From contig JASKMD010000008.1 of assembly GCA_030144725.1 (NCBI GenBank), positions 9,679,748 to 9,743,747 of the forward strand: 64,000 nt of DNA. Direction: 5' to 3'. The notes under the pieces are model-generated. The model had not been told where the DNA came from. It worked only from the letters and a program-made list of their open reading frames with translations, and did not search any database. This document shows, piece by piece, positions 3,754 through 52,556 of the stretch. This DNA is from Haematococcus lacustris. Lineage: Eukaryota > Chlorophyta > Chlorophyceae > Chlamydomonadales > Haematococcaceae. Both the position numbers and the translations under genes were made by a program. The stretch's first letter is position 1. The number at the start of each line of letters is the position of its first letter.

Positions 3754-3858
3754 CCCTAACCCTAACCCTAACCCTAACCCTAAGCCTAACCCTAACCCTA
3801 ACCCTAACCCTAACCCTAACCCTAACCCTAACCCTAACCCTAACCCTGACCCTAACAC
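3754..3858. repeat. Interstitial telomere-type repeat (CCCTAA)n
   Basis: About 17 units of CCCTAA with a few variants (AAGCCTAA, CCCTGACC, CACTACC). The G-rich strand is the minus strand and reads TTAGGG. TTAGGG is a telomere motif of some Chlamydomonadales, whereas Chlamydomonas itself uses TTTTAGGG. Unique sequence and genes continue on both sides, so this is not a chromosome end. Confidence 0.9.
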
Positions 3859-3874
3859 TACCTAATACTAGGCT

Positions 3875-22929: not shown

Positions 22930-23670
22930 CCTCACCCCCCACACCTGAGGGACTCTGGCGGCGTGTCAAGGAGGGTCTCGCTGGGGGTGTTGTCGGCTGA
23001 GCTGACCCGGCTGGTGCGGAACTCATCCACCAGCACCACACGCCCTGGCCTAAACTGCTTCACTGCCTCCTTCTGCATCTGGCTGACTGGGACACCCCTG
23101 CAGCCAATGGTGCCGGTGCCATTGAAACCAGCTGCCCCATAGGCCAGGGCCAGGATGCGGTCCGGCCACCGCTTCTGTGCCTGCTTCTTGACCTGCAGCC
23201 ACACATGGTACAGCACACAGTGGCACACATGTGGAAGGTCAGGTAGCAGCAGCAACAGAGGCAGCAACAGGAGCAACAGCAGCTGGCCAGGTGAGCTGAG
23301 TTAGGTTGGCTACTGTCTAGCTCCCAAGCCTACTGCTACTAGGCCTTACCTTGGACCAGAACGATGCCACCACGCGTTGCTTGCCACAATACAGCCGGAA
23401 CCTGGCGTTGGCCCAACGCGGCTTGGAGACCTCGGCCCACATGGCGTCGTACGTCGCCAGGACTGTGTCGGCGAACCGCCGGTACCAGGCCAGCGAGCTG
23501 GGCTTGCTGCTGACCTGCGCCAGGGCCTTGAGCTGCGGCTTCACCTTGGTCAGCCACGTCCGGGCGCTGGAGCAGTTCTTCAACAAGGTGAGAGTGGGGG
23601 AGGGAGGGTAAGGGACTGGGAGGGAGGGAGGGAGGGAGGGTAAGGGACTGAGAGGTGGTGGGTCGGGCAC
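22930..23670 (-). pseudogene. Fanzor fragment, lineage 2: helical region and RuvC-II
   Basis: Two exon-like blocks on the minus strand. The first (about 23.58-23.35 kb) encodes a helical segment with AMWAEVSKPRWANARF, clearly related to ALWEEYLKPRWRRQRL in the fuller copy at 50.6 kb. The second (about 23.19-22.95 kb) carries GTIGCRGVPVSQMQ and the RuvC-II block VVLVDEFRTSRVSS with its catalytic-type Glu. The 3' part with RuvC-III is missing on this strand. Probably a dead fragment; it meets a plus-strand fragment head-to-head at about 23.69 kb. Confidence 0.75.
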
Positions 23671-23699
23671 GAAACGAAAGAGTACTTGATTGTGCCATA

Positions 23700-24534
23700 C
23701 CTAACCGTGTGCCACCATGTCAGCCACCATGTATGTGCCTTGTGTGCATGGCTGCAGCTGGAGGAGGAGATGGCTGAGCTGTCCATGGAGCGCCACAATC
23801 ATGCCAAGCAGCTGGTGGTGTTCTTTGGTGCAGCTACCGTTGGCACTGGGGGTGGGTGGGGTGCTGATGCGGTGCTGCGAGCCTGCTGCAAGGTGGTGTG
23901 CAGGCCCAGGGGCGCAGGCCAGCGGCGAGGCAGGGTGGTGCTTGTGGATGAGCACCGCACCAGCCGGGTCAGCTCAGCAGTGAATGGCAAGCAGCCCTGT
24001 GAGGAGGAGCTGAACAAACTCAGTGCCACAAGGCCTGCAGGCTGGAAGCCCCCAGCAGGGCAGGTGGAACTCCGCATGTTGCGCCCAGCCTGGAGCCAGG
24101 AGCGTAACCAGCCAGTGCGGGGCCTGATGTGGTGCCCGGTTGTGGCCCCCCGCAAGCCCCCACAGGCCCCACGGAGCAGCCAGTCAGCCACACAGCCAGC
24201 AGCCTCAGAGCCAGGGCCCAGCACTTCCCCTCCAGCCGAGCGCAGCAAGCCGGCAGCTGAGCCCACCAAGGGCAGAGGCAAGGGCAAGGGCAAGGCTGCC
24301 AAAGCCAAGCCAGCACCACAGCCAGGCAGGTGGCTGGACAGGGACTGCAATGCAGCATTGAACATGCAGCGCATTGGGGAGAGCAGGTGGCGTCCACTGG
24401 AGCTGTGCTACTGGCCAGACCAGGCAGCTCTGCCAGCCAAGGGCAAGGAGTACCCTGGCCTGGGCTACAAGCGGCTGCGAGATAAGCCACCAAAGGCCCA
24501 GCAGCAGCAGCAGCAGCCTGCTGAGGCACAGTAG
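23700..24534 (+). pseudogene. Fanzor C-terminal fragment, lineage 2 (RuvC-II and RuvC-III)
   Basis: An open frame with LEEEMAELSMERHNHAKQL, then VVLVDEHRTSRVSS (RuvC-II, Glu present). A Pro/Lys-rich hinge follows, then WLDRDCNAALNMQRIGES (RuvC-III, Asp present) and RPLELCYWPD. It ends KEYPGLGYKRLRDKPP, a Gln run, and a stop at 24534. RuvC-I and the N-terminal half are absent, so it is a 5'-truncated copy. Where TnpB-type nucleases carry a CxxC knuckle after RTS, this protein has RVSSAV. Known family role: RNA-guided DNA cleavage. Confidence 0.8.
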
Positions 24535-48004: not shown

Positions 48005-48221
48005 TAGAGTGTATCAGTCAAACATAACTCATTCAACACGGAACAACATGTTTGACTGTGGGTAATCTCACTCAGCTACTCCAATTAAGTTAAAACATCC
48101 TCGGTCGCACCCTTGATGACCACAAACCCCACACCGGTGGCATTTCCCCCTGAAGCACTGGGCAACTAATCAAAACCAACAGCTTAATGTAAGGCTTACA
48201 GCCTCTGTACACTACTAGGGC
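48005..48221 (-). ncRNA. Post-stop tail of truncated Fanzor, lineage 1 (candidate guide RNA 3' part)
   Basis: Non-coding DNA downstream of the stop of the truncated copy. It aligns along its length with 48759-48993 (shared blocks CATCCTCGGTCGCACCCTTG, AACAGCTTAATG, GACTGTGGGTAA and ACTCATTCAAC). On the minus strand it ends GACTGATACACTCTACC. RNA function is inferred from the position alone. Confidence 0.45.
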
Positions 48222-48756
48222 CTATGCGTTATTGCGGGCCTGGCCATCAATGCCCCGGCGGTACTCTGCTGCACGCTGCAACCTCTGCCTGCCCTTGGAC
48301 AGCCGGTCATTGACCAGCTTGTAGCCTTGCTCTTACTACTCGCCAACGGGGGGCAGAGCCTCTAAGCCCTCATAGCTGCACAGCTCCAGGGGGCGCTGCA
48401 TGCTCTCCCCAATGCGCTGCAAGTTCAGGCATCCTTTGGTGTCCCAGTCCAGCCACCTGCCCCATGGGGGGGGCTGGGGCCGTGGGACTGGGCCAGGTGC
48501 AGCAGGGAGGGGCTGGGCCTGAGCAGGGGGAGGGGGAGGGAGGTTGGACGGCACCTCATGGCACCAAAGCATGCCCCGCACATACTTAGCATGCCGCTGG
48601 CCCCAGGCTGGGCGCACCAGCCGCTGGATGACCTGGCCTACTGTACCCAGTCTGCGGGCCTAGGCCGGTCACATGGCAGGTGTAGCTCACATGCCTGGGG
48701 TGCGTCCACAAACGGAACTCATCCACGATCACCAGCCTTTCAGGCCTGACAGACGC
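48222..48756 (-). pseudogene. Truncated Fanzor, lineage 1 (RuvC-II and RuvC-III remnant)
   Basis: Begins within a RuvC-II block (RLVIVDEFRLWTHPRHVSY), has LRPAWGQRHAKYVRGMLWCH-type sequence from the hinge, then a RuvC-III block changed to LDWDTKGCLNLQRIGES, and ends at the stop at 48222-48224. The N-terminal half, RuvC-I and the intron are missing, and the RTS motif after the Glu is lost. Clearly dead. It keeps TGG where the neighbouring copy has an in-frame TAG, which shows the ancestral state there. Confidence 0.8.
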
Positions 48757-48772
48757 CTGGAGTGTATCAGAC
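48757..48772 (-). repeat. 16-bp direct repeat at the 3' border of the Fanzor element
   Basis: CTGGAGTGTATCAGAC on the plus strand, identical to 52541-52556. It forms the end of the post-stop tail. Confidence 0.9.
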
Positions 48773-48993
48773 CAACAAAACTCATTCAACAAGGAACAAC
48801 ATGTTGGACTGTGGGTAAGCTCACTCAGCTACTACAAACACGTTGTAGCATCCTCGGTCGCACCCTTGATGACTACCAACCCCACGCCGGTGGCACTCGT
48901 TCCTGGCGCAAACCCCCTTGACCACTGGGCACCTCATCAAAACTAACAGCTTAATGCTTTGTAAGGCTAACAGCCTTCTCAAACTGCTAGGGC
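48759..48993 (-). ncRNA. Post-stop tail of full-length Fanzor (candidate guide RNA 3' part)
   Basis: About 235 bp between the Fanzor stop (48994-48996) and the element border, conserved with 48005-48221 although neither copy codes here. In studied Fanzor and TnpB loci the guide RNA spans the gene's 3' end and this region, and the guide itself lies just beyond the border. Here that would read into the truncated neighbour copy. Whether it is transcribed cannot be seen from sequence. Confidence 0.5.
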
Positions 48994-51900
48994 CTATGCG
49001 TCATTGCGGGCCCGGCCATCAATGCCCCGCCGGTACTCAGCAGCCCGGTGCAACCTCTGCCTGCCCTTGGGCAGCCGGTCATTGACCCGCTTGTAGCCCT
49101 GCTGGTACTCCTTACCAACGGGGGGCAGAGCCTCCCTGTCCTTCCAGCTGCACAGCTCAAGGGGGCGCTGCGTGCTCTCCCCAATGCGCTGGAAGTTAAA
49201 GCAGGCGTTGGTGTCCCGGTCCAGCCACCTGCCCCATGAGGGAGCCTGGGGTGGTGGCACTGGGCCAGGTGCTGCAGGGAGGGGCTGGGCCTGGGCAGGG
49301 GGAGGGGGTGGGGCCTGGGCAGGGGGAGGGGCAGGTGGGGGGGCCTGGGCAGGGGGAGGGGCAGGTGGGGGGTCCTGGGCAGGGGCAGGGGGGTTGGGCG
49401 GCACCTGATGGCACTACTGCATGCCCCGCACATACTTAGCATGGCGCAGGCTCCAGGCTGGGCGCACCAGCCGCTGGTTGACTTGGCCTGCTGGGGGTAC
49501 CCAGTCTTCGGGCCTAGGCTGGTCATCTGGCAGGTGCAGCTCACATGTCTGGCGGGCATGCACTGATGAGCTGACACGGCTGGTGCGGAACTCATCCACA
49601 ATCACCAGCCTGTCAGGCCTAGGATCTGTGCTGGGCCTGCTGGGCTGCTCCACCACCTTGCGAAACCCATCCCGCACTGCCTTGGCTTTCCACCCACCCC
49701 CACTGAAGTTGCCCGCTCCCAGGAACACCGCCACTCCCCTCTCCTGGTGGTAGTGCTGGCGTGACACCCACTTCATCCCATTCACCACCTGCAGGTCAGG
49801 TCAGGTCAGGTCAGGTCAGGTCAGGTCAGGTCAGGTCAGGTCAGGTCAGGTCAGGTCAGGTCAGGTCAGGTCAGGTCAGGTCAGGTCAGGTCAGGTCAGG
49901 TCAGGTCAGGTCAGGTCAGGTCAGGTCAGGTCAGGTCAGGTCAGGTCAGGTCAGGTCAGGTCAGGTCAGGTCAGGTCAGGTCAGGTCAGGTCAGGTCAGG
50001 TCAGGTCAGGTCAGGTCAGGTCAGGTCAGGTCAGGTCAGGTCAGGTCAGGTCAGGTCAGGTCAGGTCAGGTCAGGTCAGGTCAGGTCAGGTCAGGTCAGG
50101 TCAGGTCAGGTCAGGTCAGGTCAGGTCAGGTCAGGTCAGGTCAGGTCAGGTCAGGTCAGGTCAGGTCAGGTCAGGTCAGGTCAGGTCAGGTCAGGTCAGG
50201 TCAGGTCAGGTCAGGTCAGGTCAGGTCAGGTCAGGTCAGGTCAGGTCAGGTCAGGTCAGGTCAGGTCAGGTCAGGTCAGGTCAGGTCAGGTCAGGTCAGG
50301 TCAGGTCAGGTCAGGTCAGGTCAGGTCAGGTCAGGTCAGGTCAGGTCAGGTCAGGTCAGGTCAGGTCAGGTCAGGTCAGGTCAGGTCAGGTCAGGTCAGG
50401 TCAGGTCAGGTCAGGTCAGGTCAGGTCAGGTCAGGTCAGGTCAGGTCAGGTCAGGTCAGGTCAGGTCAGGTCAGGTCAGGTCAGGTCAGGTCATACCTTT
50501 TTGCAGAAGCCCTCAATGACGCGCTCCTGGGCATGGTGCAGTGCCAGCCGCTGCCGGCGCCAACGTGGCTTGAGGTACTCCTCCCACAGCGCGTCCCAGG
50601 TGGCCTTGAGGGCCAGGATGTGGGCCTGTAGGCCGTCTAGGGTGGTGCCAGCTGGGGTGGCAGCTGCCAGCTGCTGCAGCTGTGGCTGGATGGCAATTGA
50701 CCAACGAGCTGTGTCCTGCTTGGATTTGGTAAGCCCACTGTCATGCTTCAGGTGCCCCTTGCTCAGCTCCCACTCCCACTGCCTGACCTGTGACTGGGTC
50801 CCGCTGTGCATGCCCAGCCTTGATGGCCTGGGTGACGCCCGGGTCCACCCCAACAGCAATGTGGGTGGTGGGGTTGAAGTCGCTTGTTGCTGTGAGCTGA
50901 CGCCCTATGAAGGGCAGATCCACTGGCTCCTTGACTACCTGGCTGCGCACGAAGTGCACACTGATGCTCACCCCATCCGTCTCTACCCTGCGCGCAAAGT
51001 CCCACCCGTTGTTCTGCAGCTGGCTGTACTGTATGAACCGCTGCCACTGGGGTAGGCTGTTTGCCTCAACTTGGGGCCTTGTGAGGGTGGTCATGCCCAG
51101 GTCAGCCAGGACACCATGCAGCACCCTGTCATCAATGACAAAGTGCCGCGCACGCACCCCCACCATGGGGAGCATGGTGAAGGGGCGCGGGCACGTGTCA
51201 TGTTGTTGCCAGCCCTCTAGGCTGCGGTTGACAAACAATGCATAGCGCACCCTCTTCTCTAGGGGCAGCCTGCCTGCCCCCCCCTTCCCTATGTAGTCCA
51301 CTCCCTCCAGCCACCGGGCCTCCAGCCCCAGCAGGCTACGATGCTTGGCTACCTCCGCCACCCACCTAGGCTGCCGCAGCACACTATTGACTGGCAGGCG
51401 CCACCTGTGCTCCCGGTCTGGCAGGCTGTAGTCATGCCTGCCTAGCACCAGCTGGGAGAAATGTTTCTGAGCATTCCTGCTGAATCCCCCCTCAACCACC
51501 CCAATAGCTTTGCCCCACCACTTGATGAAGCGGCCCGGGTGCCGGTAGAACTCATTGATGCTGGTGCTGATTTTGGTGGCGTTGGCGTTGAGGGAGTTGC
51601 CATCCCCTGTCAGGCGCACCTCATCCAGCTGCTGGAGCATTGCCACCGGCCAAGCGCTGCTGGGCTGCTCAAACACAGCCACCTCGGCAGGCAGCAGCTT
51701 GATGCTGCTGTGGTGGGGACCACGCATCAGATGCTCAAGCACCCTAGCGATGTTCAGCAGCTCCATGGCATCTTTGATCTGTGACAGCAGCTTGGGGTCC
51801 AGGATGTTGAGCTGCACTGGGGGGGGCAGCTGCGCTGGGGCGGCTGCAGAGCGGGGGGAGCTGCGTGTGGCAAGGTGGGGGTGAGTATAGGGAGGGCAAG

Positions 51901-52353
51901 CTGGGTCAGGCGGGGGAGGGGCGCTTGGGGCTGGACCTGCTGCTGGGAAGCCTGCAGTGGGCTGGCCTAGGAAGGATTGGAGCAGCATGGAGAGGCACAG
52001 GACCGCTGTTATGCAACACTGCTTGCTCCCCATGGTCATGCGCTTGTTGACCTCCGCCACAACTGCGTCTACTTGCGCTGGGCTGAGATCAGGCAGCGCT
52101 GCCTCCACGAGGCCACGAATTGCAGCCTTGATGACATGGCGCCGCTCTCCAACTACCTCTTGCTGCCCACTTCCACTGGCACCTACATACATGGGACGGC
52201 ATAGCACACGCGCAGCAACTTGATTCAGGGGGTCGCAGTATCGCGTGGTGCACACTGCGTCGCTTCGTCAGGGGGGCCTCGTCAAGCTTTGCGGCTTTGC
52301 GGCTTACCGGCTGCACTCTGTGCGGGGCGCTTGCGCTTCTTATTCCGCGACAT
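48994..52353 (-). pseudogene. Fanzor RNA-guided nuclease homologue (RuvC-I, II and III), two lesions
   Basis: Eukaryotic TnpB relative. Exon 1 (52353-52308) encodes MSRNKKRKRPAQSAA, an NLS-like start, and joins in phase to the exon starting at 52182. The N-terminal half is helical, with INEFYRHPGRFIKWWGKA and LPLEKRVRYALFVNRSLEG. RuvC-I is AVGVDPGVTQAIKA (Asp codon 50843-50845, residue about 462). A helical stretch with ALWEEYLKPRWRRQRL follows. After the 708-bp intron comes RuvC-II RLVIVDEFRTSRVSS (Glu at 49591-49593), a Pro-rich hinge and RuvC-III WLDRDTNACFNFQRIGES (Asp at 49213-49215). All three catalytic acids are present. Lesions: a frame change near 50790 and a TAG at 49414-49416 where the sister copy has TGG. 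The CxxC zinc knuckle expected after RTS is absent. Confidence 0.9.
49789..50496 (-). repeat. Intron of the Fanzor gene made of about 140 CCTGA repeats
   Basis: Minus-strand donor AAAAAG then GTATGA at 50497/50496; acceptor CCTGACCTGCAG then GTGGTGAATG at 49789/49788. Everything between is (CCTGA)n with no visible interruption. Each unit contains CTGAC, a match to the CTRAY branch-point consensus, and the array is pyrimidine-biased. The plus-strand open frame of repeated SGQVR here is an artefact. Confidence 0.93.
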
Positions 52354-52480
52354 TTGAGGGCTTCAGCAACATTATCCAAGCGCAGTGGCCGTGCGGGGTG
52401 GTGCATCAGGTCGACATCCAACCGGAGTGCTGGTACCCGGAATGAGGCGGAAGTGATGTTACACATTTCACACAAAGGCA

Positions 52481-52540
52481 AAGGCAAAGGCAAAGAGCTC
52501 TAGCCAAGGCCCTTGTCTCTAGCCAAGGGTATATATATAG
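52481..52540. promoter_or_regulatory. Divergent promoter region with TATATATATA
   Basis: An (AAAGGC)n run at 52475-52497 and the TATATATATA at 52531-52540 lie between the minus-strand Fanzor start (52353) and the plus-strand U1-C start (52858). The TATA stretch lies next to the 16-bp direct repeat, on the Fanzor side. Function is inferred. Confidence 0.35.
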
Positions 52541-52556
52541 CTGGAGTGTATCAGAC
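52541..52556. repeat. 16-bp direct repeat at the 5' border of the Fanzor element
   Basis: CTGGAGTGTATCAGAC, identical to and in the same orientation as 48757-48772. Beyond it the sequence (GTTGCGAGCAGAGC) no longer resembles the Fanzor tail. Confidence 0.9.

Follow-up and report, generated by a model that had tools for sequence, protein, structure and literature searches.

Does the locus at positions 48757-52556 of a 64,000-nucleotide stretch of the Haematococcus lacustris genome (contig JASKMD010000008.1; hereafter the window, meaning the whole stretch that was analysed) contain a working RNA-guided nuclease gene, and how did this gene come to lie there? A preliminary description had seen here a nearly complete Fanzor element at a single locus. 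The gene is indeed recognizable, but its frame is broken past RuvC-I and an in-frame TAG precedes RuvC-III. Hence, the window copy is dead as a gene; it is ordinary debris. We consider it probable that this is a defunct member of a non-autonomous, high-copy family, which carries a multi-exon Fanzor1-like RuvC endonuclease gene and whose copying starts from the 3' end where a GN^CTG site has been nicked.

Anatomy of the element and its gene

The exon and intron borders listed here were derived by comparison with relatives and not from transcripts. Everything lies on the minus strand, which the preliminary description had not stated.

52541-52556, minus: target-site duplication, upstream copy, GTCTGATACACTCCAG (repeat comparison)
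48771-52540, minus: inserted element, bounded by the duplication copies (ends from the duplication and from 29 other loci compared)
~48771-52476, minus: family homology within the element (comparison with 29 other loci)
52477-52540, minus: 64-bp filler at the 5' junction with a TATATATA stretch, absent from the other copies compared
52308-52353, minus: exon 1 with MSRNKKRKRPAQSAA, resembling a nuclear localization signal, ending at a GTAAGC donor
52183-52307, minus: intron 1, 125 bp, GTAAGC...TGTAG (splice sites predicted from relatives)
50497-52182, minus: exon 2, N-terminal half and RuvC-I, frame broken past RuvC-I
50834-50854, minus: RuvC-I, VDPGV (context VGVDPGVTQ), in exon 2
49789-50496, minus: intron 2, 708 bp, GTATGACC...CTGCAG, 99% TGACC units (splice sites predicted from relatives)
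48994-49788, minus: exon 3, RuvC-II, proline-rich linker, RuvC-III and stop
49580-49599, minus: RuvC-II, VDEFRTS, in exon 3
49414-49416, minus: premature in-frame TAG between RuvC-II and RuvC-III
49204-49227, minus: RuvC-III, DRDTNA (context WLDRDTNA), in exon 3
48994-48996, minus: stop codon of the gene
48771-48993, minus: conserved non-coding 3' tail (possible hairpin at the terminus), a candidate for an omega RNA or a copy-initiation signal
48757-48772, minus: target-site duplication, downstream copy, GTCTGATACACTCCAG (repeat comparison)
48018-48748, minus: older family copy, 5'-truncated and more diverged (77.9% identity in the tail), then CTGATACACTC at 48007-48017

The first exon, the three RuvC motifs and the non-coding tail after the stop are present as the preliminary description had reported, and the tail is conserved at 94% mean column identity across 35 copies. 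An N-terminus like that of exon 1 is also present in the family proteins P0006 and P0011. Intron 1 measures 100-141 bp across the loci measured. The frame homologous to relatives switches shortly after RuvC-I, from a 508-residue frame at 50741-52267 to another at 50491-50904. The duplication bordering the element is 14-16 bp long; the ends given previously, 48759 and 52556, fall inside the duplication copies. At the position of the 5' filler, the other near-full-length copies inspected have different sequence. Beyond what had been described, the locus also holds the second, diverged copy and a CAGGT x 140 array in intron 2.

A high-copy family with a fixed 3' end

The locus is a member of a large, high-copy family. 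In the 308-Mb Haematococcus lacustris assembly that was searched, there are 1345 exact occurrences of the 20-nt 3' terminus, duplicated loci included. The 508-residue frame of exon 2 has 87 listed genomic matches, many of them with an open frame (28432 first-look candidates, 85 scored), and the 3' tail has 40 (2861 first-look candidates, 40 scored). The listed protein relatives are all named Haematococcus lacustris (best 120 of 141, 123 and 789), in searches whose words were drawn from Haematococcus queries and may miss distant relatives. The top relative, P0001, is 100% identical across 92% of the query and is taken as the probable gene model of the window locus. Exon 2 is open from end to end in 14 of 55 matching loci, exon 3 in 9 and both in 1, which are underestimates, as most loci end about 1.5 kb from the match. 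None of the 33 pattern matches to the family in viral contigs was confirmed as a relative.

Against 29 other loci, the 3' end is constant, whereas the 5' ends vary, with fillers, and internal deletions occur. Direct repeats of at least 11 bp linking the 3' junction to an upstream point were found at 16 of 39 junctions with different flanks (upstream span about 1.5 kb in most loci), compared with 1 of 115 shifted controls; L032 and L046 among these 16 seem to duplicate other rows, and 20 of the 39 junctions had no repeat of at least 9 bp. In a set of 16 non-redundant junctions, the duplications are 10-16 bp long, the 5' copy begins with CTG (+1 to +3) in 15, and G stands at -2 in 15 (chance about 1e-7 if G = 0.29). 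Left out of this set as redundant were L032 and the older copy at the window locus (same site), L046 (L043 flank) and L041 and L044 (L008 flank); L009/L011 and L070 were omitted for a mismatched duplication, and L036 for a missing flank. Genome-wide, NCTG directly follows 1139 of the 1345 exact termini, against about 1 in 64 expected, with CTG being assignable to the target only at junctions with a visible 5' copy.

Six extra termini, picked from the list among those of the GTTTG variant, each had family homology, which spanned between 38 bp and several hundred bp. At three of them, with copies of 41, 68 and 155 bp, 16-bp duplications are present (two with one mismatch); the remaining three showed no convincing duplication. 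Insertion thus takes place at GN^CTG, and the copies are 3'-anchored and 5'-truncated down to 41 bp. We set aside CTG as a Fanzor target-adjacent motif because GNCTG also stands at the element's own 3' junction, which would then be cut.

Two insertions at one target

The window region 48007-52556 contains two insertions of different divergence at one target sequence, CTGATACACTC. The older copy is followed by this sequence, whereas the younger element is bordered by CTGATACACTCCAG on both sides and was inserted in the upstream duplication of the older copy, at the same GT^CTG. A family piece in the same orientation lies within 250 bp downstream of 9 of 48 3' ends; these nine include the window locus twice (also as L031), as well as L032, which has the same arrangement. 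For the tandem neighbours L007 and L010, no 3' end of a downstream element was found in the adjoining stretches. Guided re-insertion behind a shared target may have produced the nested pair, but one case cannot say.

Retained introns and a tandem array

The core of intron 2 is a perfect CAGGT x 140 array of 702 bp (49792-50493), which is nearly the whole intron. In 22 distinct copies covered at both splice sites, intron 2 ranges from 53 to 1055 bp in length, and exact TGACC units (9 to 187) account for 47-99% of it in 21 of the 22. The intron of L013 has none, but other short repeats instead. A genome-wide search for removal of intron 2 with patterns of 31 and 35 nt, at most 3 mismatches each, found no spliced junction and 456 unspliced acceptors, some of which belong to copies truncated within the intron and unable to show a junction. 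On these counts, copying from spliced mRNA was rejected. For intron 1, no spliced match was found in the family loci examined, against 35 unspliced ones, with the window locus entering twice.

Two other Fanzor-like fragments lie on opposite strands at 22932-24534 of the window. The plus-strand one, at about 23.57-24.53 kb, is a sister-subfamily copy with RuvC-II and RuvC-III, whose intron in the corresponding place (copy at 23.6-24.5 kb) holds a G-rich repeat. The other, on the minus strand at 22.93-23.70 kb, is more divergent and has VDEFRTSRVSS.

Kinship of the protein to Fanzor

All three catalytic positions are well kept in the family. At RuvC-I, the DPG motif has D in 95 and P in 96 of the 105 ungapped family rows (another 21 have a gap). 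The catalytic glutamate, E in 120 of 123 rows, occupies the Fanzor-type place in VDEFRTSRVS, and the RD of RuvC-III, in WLDRD, has D in 116 of 117. DPG at RuvC-I is described as a Fanzor signature, and the E-alt glutamate as lying six residues before the zinc-finger position (PMC10711439).

Foldseek searches with models of the relatives P0006 and P0081 placed SpuFz1 of Spizellomyces first for both (E 3.2e-5 and 1.7e-4). With the RuvC model, Cas12 or Fanzor entries made up 49 of 50 VIA rows, and Wsv486 was top in the viral library at 5e-12. Both models have low mean confidence, and the fold has no power to tell Fanzor from Cas12. The predicted local distance difference test score of the RuvC-III stretch is below 50 in both, so the meeting of the three acids is unreadable there.

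Median ratios of nonsynonymous to synonymous substitution rates (dN/dS) were 0.32, 0.35, 0.30, 0.23 and 0.25 from the lowest dS bin to the highest (11, 10, 52, 48 and 153 pairs; 24 copies), with the cautions that the pairs are not independent, that selecting copies for an open exon 2 pushes the values low, and that the window row includes about 20 residues past the frame break. Read with these cautions, values of 0.23-0.35 point to purifying selection on the protein during the spread of the family. Kinship to Fanzor is supported by DPG, the glutamate, RD and the fold searches. We tentatively chose Fanzor1 rather than Fanzor2 on the fold ranking and the length.

Several results qualify this assignment. 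A C4 zinc finger between RuvC-II and RuvC-III is present in many Fanzor members, though not in all (PMC10711439), and belongs to the Fanzor motif of Bao and Jurka (PMC3627910). Here the first CxxC, readable in 105 of 126 rows, is replaced by SxxV, SxxL, SxxM or SxxA in 104 and by NxxV in 1; the second, readable in 99, reads CxxV or CxxL in 90. By these alignments, the C4 zinc ribbon is lost in the family. The pieces of the window protein had no relevant match in Pfam. The sister proteins P0146 and P0216 reached only 25.3 bits against the TNB domain of Pfam, below its cut-off of 26.3; NCBIfam gave no TnpB/Fanzor-type match, and the PDB sequence search gave no relative over the cut-off. We call the protein Fanzor1-like rather than Fanzor1 because the ribbon is lost and no profile exceeds its cut-off. 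The preliminary description had named profile search and structure prediction among its checks: the expected profile match is absent although the fold search indicates Fanzor or Cas12, and RuvC-III was modelled with low confidence, so that only half of what was to speak against a Fanzor was found.

The missing profile and PDB sequence matches are also what would be seen if the protein were of another RNase H-fold kind, such as a transposase, and resembled Fanzor by chance. This is very improbable given the Fanzor-specific DPG and glutamate placement and the dominance of Fanzor and Cas12 in the fold rankings. At the other extreme, the presence of all three motifs and the tail favours a working Fanzor locus, and the preliminary description had read them as an RNA-guided nuclease system. 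Of that reading the kinship stands, but the system does not: the frame break and the in-frame TAG contradict a working gene at this locus, and a functional locus is hardly conceivable unless the transcript avoids both.

The 3' tail

The folding energy of the tail is ordinary in comparison with shuffled sequences (z -0.72), and only 2 of 61 predicted pairs have changes on both sides. The 11 pairs of the terminal hairpin are paired in 96.9% of cells, against 95.3% in shuffles, with one compensatory pair, which lends the predicted hairpin weak support. Six Rfam matches all fell under the gathering scores. Since folding is ordinary and covariation minimal, a role of the tail as omega RNA is unproven, and it is a candidate only.

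How the copies may be made

The family shows the fixed 3' terminus, the shortened 5' ends and the target-site duplications that are typical of retroposons made by target-primed reverse transcription. In the account that we favour, copying would begin at the 3' end of the element at a nicked GN^CTG site, and its early stop would produce the truncations, duplications and fillers. In the simplest form, the template would be unspliced element RNA, copied in a target-primed manner by a reverse transcriptase that another element would provide. Retroelements with introns have a precedent in Penelope-like elements. The intact protein would cut DNA with a guide made of the 3' tail and the flank, as Fanzor1 does. 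Intron-less copies, expected from a spliced mRNA template, were not found, and the one abundant family of long interspersed nuclear elements (LINEs) examined as a reverse-transcriptase partner has a different 3' end.

Intron retention is also what DNA copying predicts, and we regard as possible, if somewhat unlikely, a one-ended transposition of the Helitron2 type, in which a Helitron would provide RepHel in trans to a non-autonomous Fanzor1 element. Such transposition was proposed for CRe-1, 2 and 3 (Bao and Jurka 2013, PMC3627910), which show the same syndrome of 5' truncation, internal deletions and intact 3' ends, and also variable duplications and extra sequence at some 5' junctions (PMC3627910). 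The genome does contain Helitron-like proteins (18 matches, 7 strong), and the possible terminal hairpin would fit as well. However, the one Helitron family compared (two loci) ends in CCCTAGTC, which has no match to the tail. The longest exact inverted match between the ends of the window copy is 7 bp, a length reached or exceeded in 65 of 500 shuffles, with the true 5' end uncertain. The target is GNCTG, and 0 of 16 duplications are preceded by TTTT or by the T-rich tetranucleotides named for CRe. In a more elaborate form of the RNA account, the Fanzor-like nuclease would travel with an element whose own unspliced RNA is copied in a target-primed way at GN^CTG; the 3' tail would act both as guide and as copy start, and the flank of each copy would direct cutting, perhaps also re-insertion, to that target. 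We regard this form as improbable.

Neither mobile family compared shares the 3' end: that of the abundant LINE family of P0190 differs, and that of the Helitron family is unrelated. The latter family (L066 and L067) has open Rep-domain frames, and its two copies share 97.7% identity along 5.6 kb. The LINE family, with 3' ends in L061-L063, is very young; the 132 matches listed have 97-100% identity to the query piece, and a long open frame is present in many of them. Fragments of a LINE of this kind are joined to Fanzor-like pieces in the gene models P0124, P0137, P0190 and P0058.

Also of note is a telomere-like tract inside the window, CCCTAA x 18 at 3754-3860; AACCCT is the reported telomere repeat of this alga (PMC7617258).

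Comparison with known systems

A 2023 Science Advances paper on eukaryotic Fanzors reportedly included a Chlamydomonas protein among those studied. We found no earlier report of this family in a literature search that covered subscription journals thinly, and the word Fanzor does not occur in the main text of the Haematococcus genome papers examined. The host alga is grown for astaxanthin. Copies complete at one end and cut at the other raise the testable question of how such elements move, which was left open for CRe-type Fanzor1 elements at their description. With more than 1000 3' termini, a sharp target motif, 41-bp copies and an intron that was never found removed, this family makes one-ended Helitron transposition and target-primed RNA copying distinguishable. 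A protein that appears to be under selection, keeps the three acids and has lost the zinc ribbon is also a natural test of the role of that ribbon.

An abundant Fanzor-bearing repeat in a green alga is known from Auxenochlorella, where a Fanzor-encoding element is reported to be the most abundant repeat (PMC12633428); the likeness is one of description only. SpuFz1 of Spizellomyces punctatus (PDB 8gkh, 9ceu and 9cez) is the top Foldseek match of both models and has the same order of RuvC motifs, but is only 9-16% identical to the models in structure alignments and has a CCCC zinc finger (PMC10432273). SPu-1 differs in that its inverted repeats measure 33 bp and its putative duplications are TA (PMC3627910). 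CRe-1, 2 and 3 of Chlamydomonas reinhardtii are likewise green-algal, carry a multi-exon Fanzor1 gene, are thought to be non-autonomous, and share the frequent 5' truncation, internal deletions and intact 3' ends, with duplications of ~7-19 bp and some extra 5' sequence (PMC3627910). Their target, however, is T-rich rather than GNCTG, and their ends are common with a Helitron (PMC3627910), whereas no such sharing was found in Haematococcus, where one Helitron family was examined. The Haematococcus family further departs from them in the loss of the zinc ribbon, in a second intron that is a tandem array, and in copy number, with 1345 exact 3' termini against 150, 70 and 35 loci of the CRe elements (PMC3627910).

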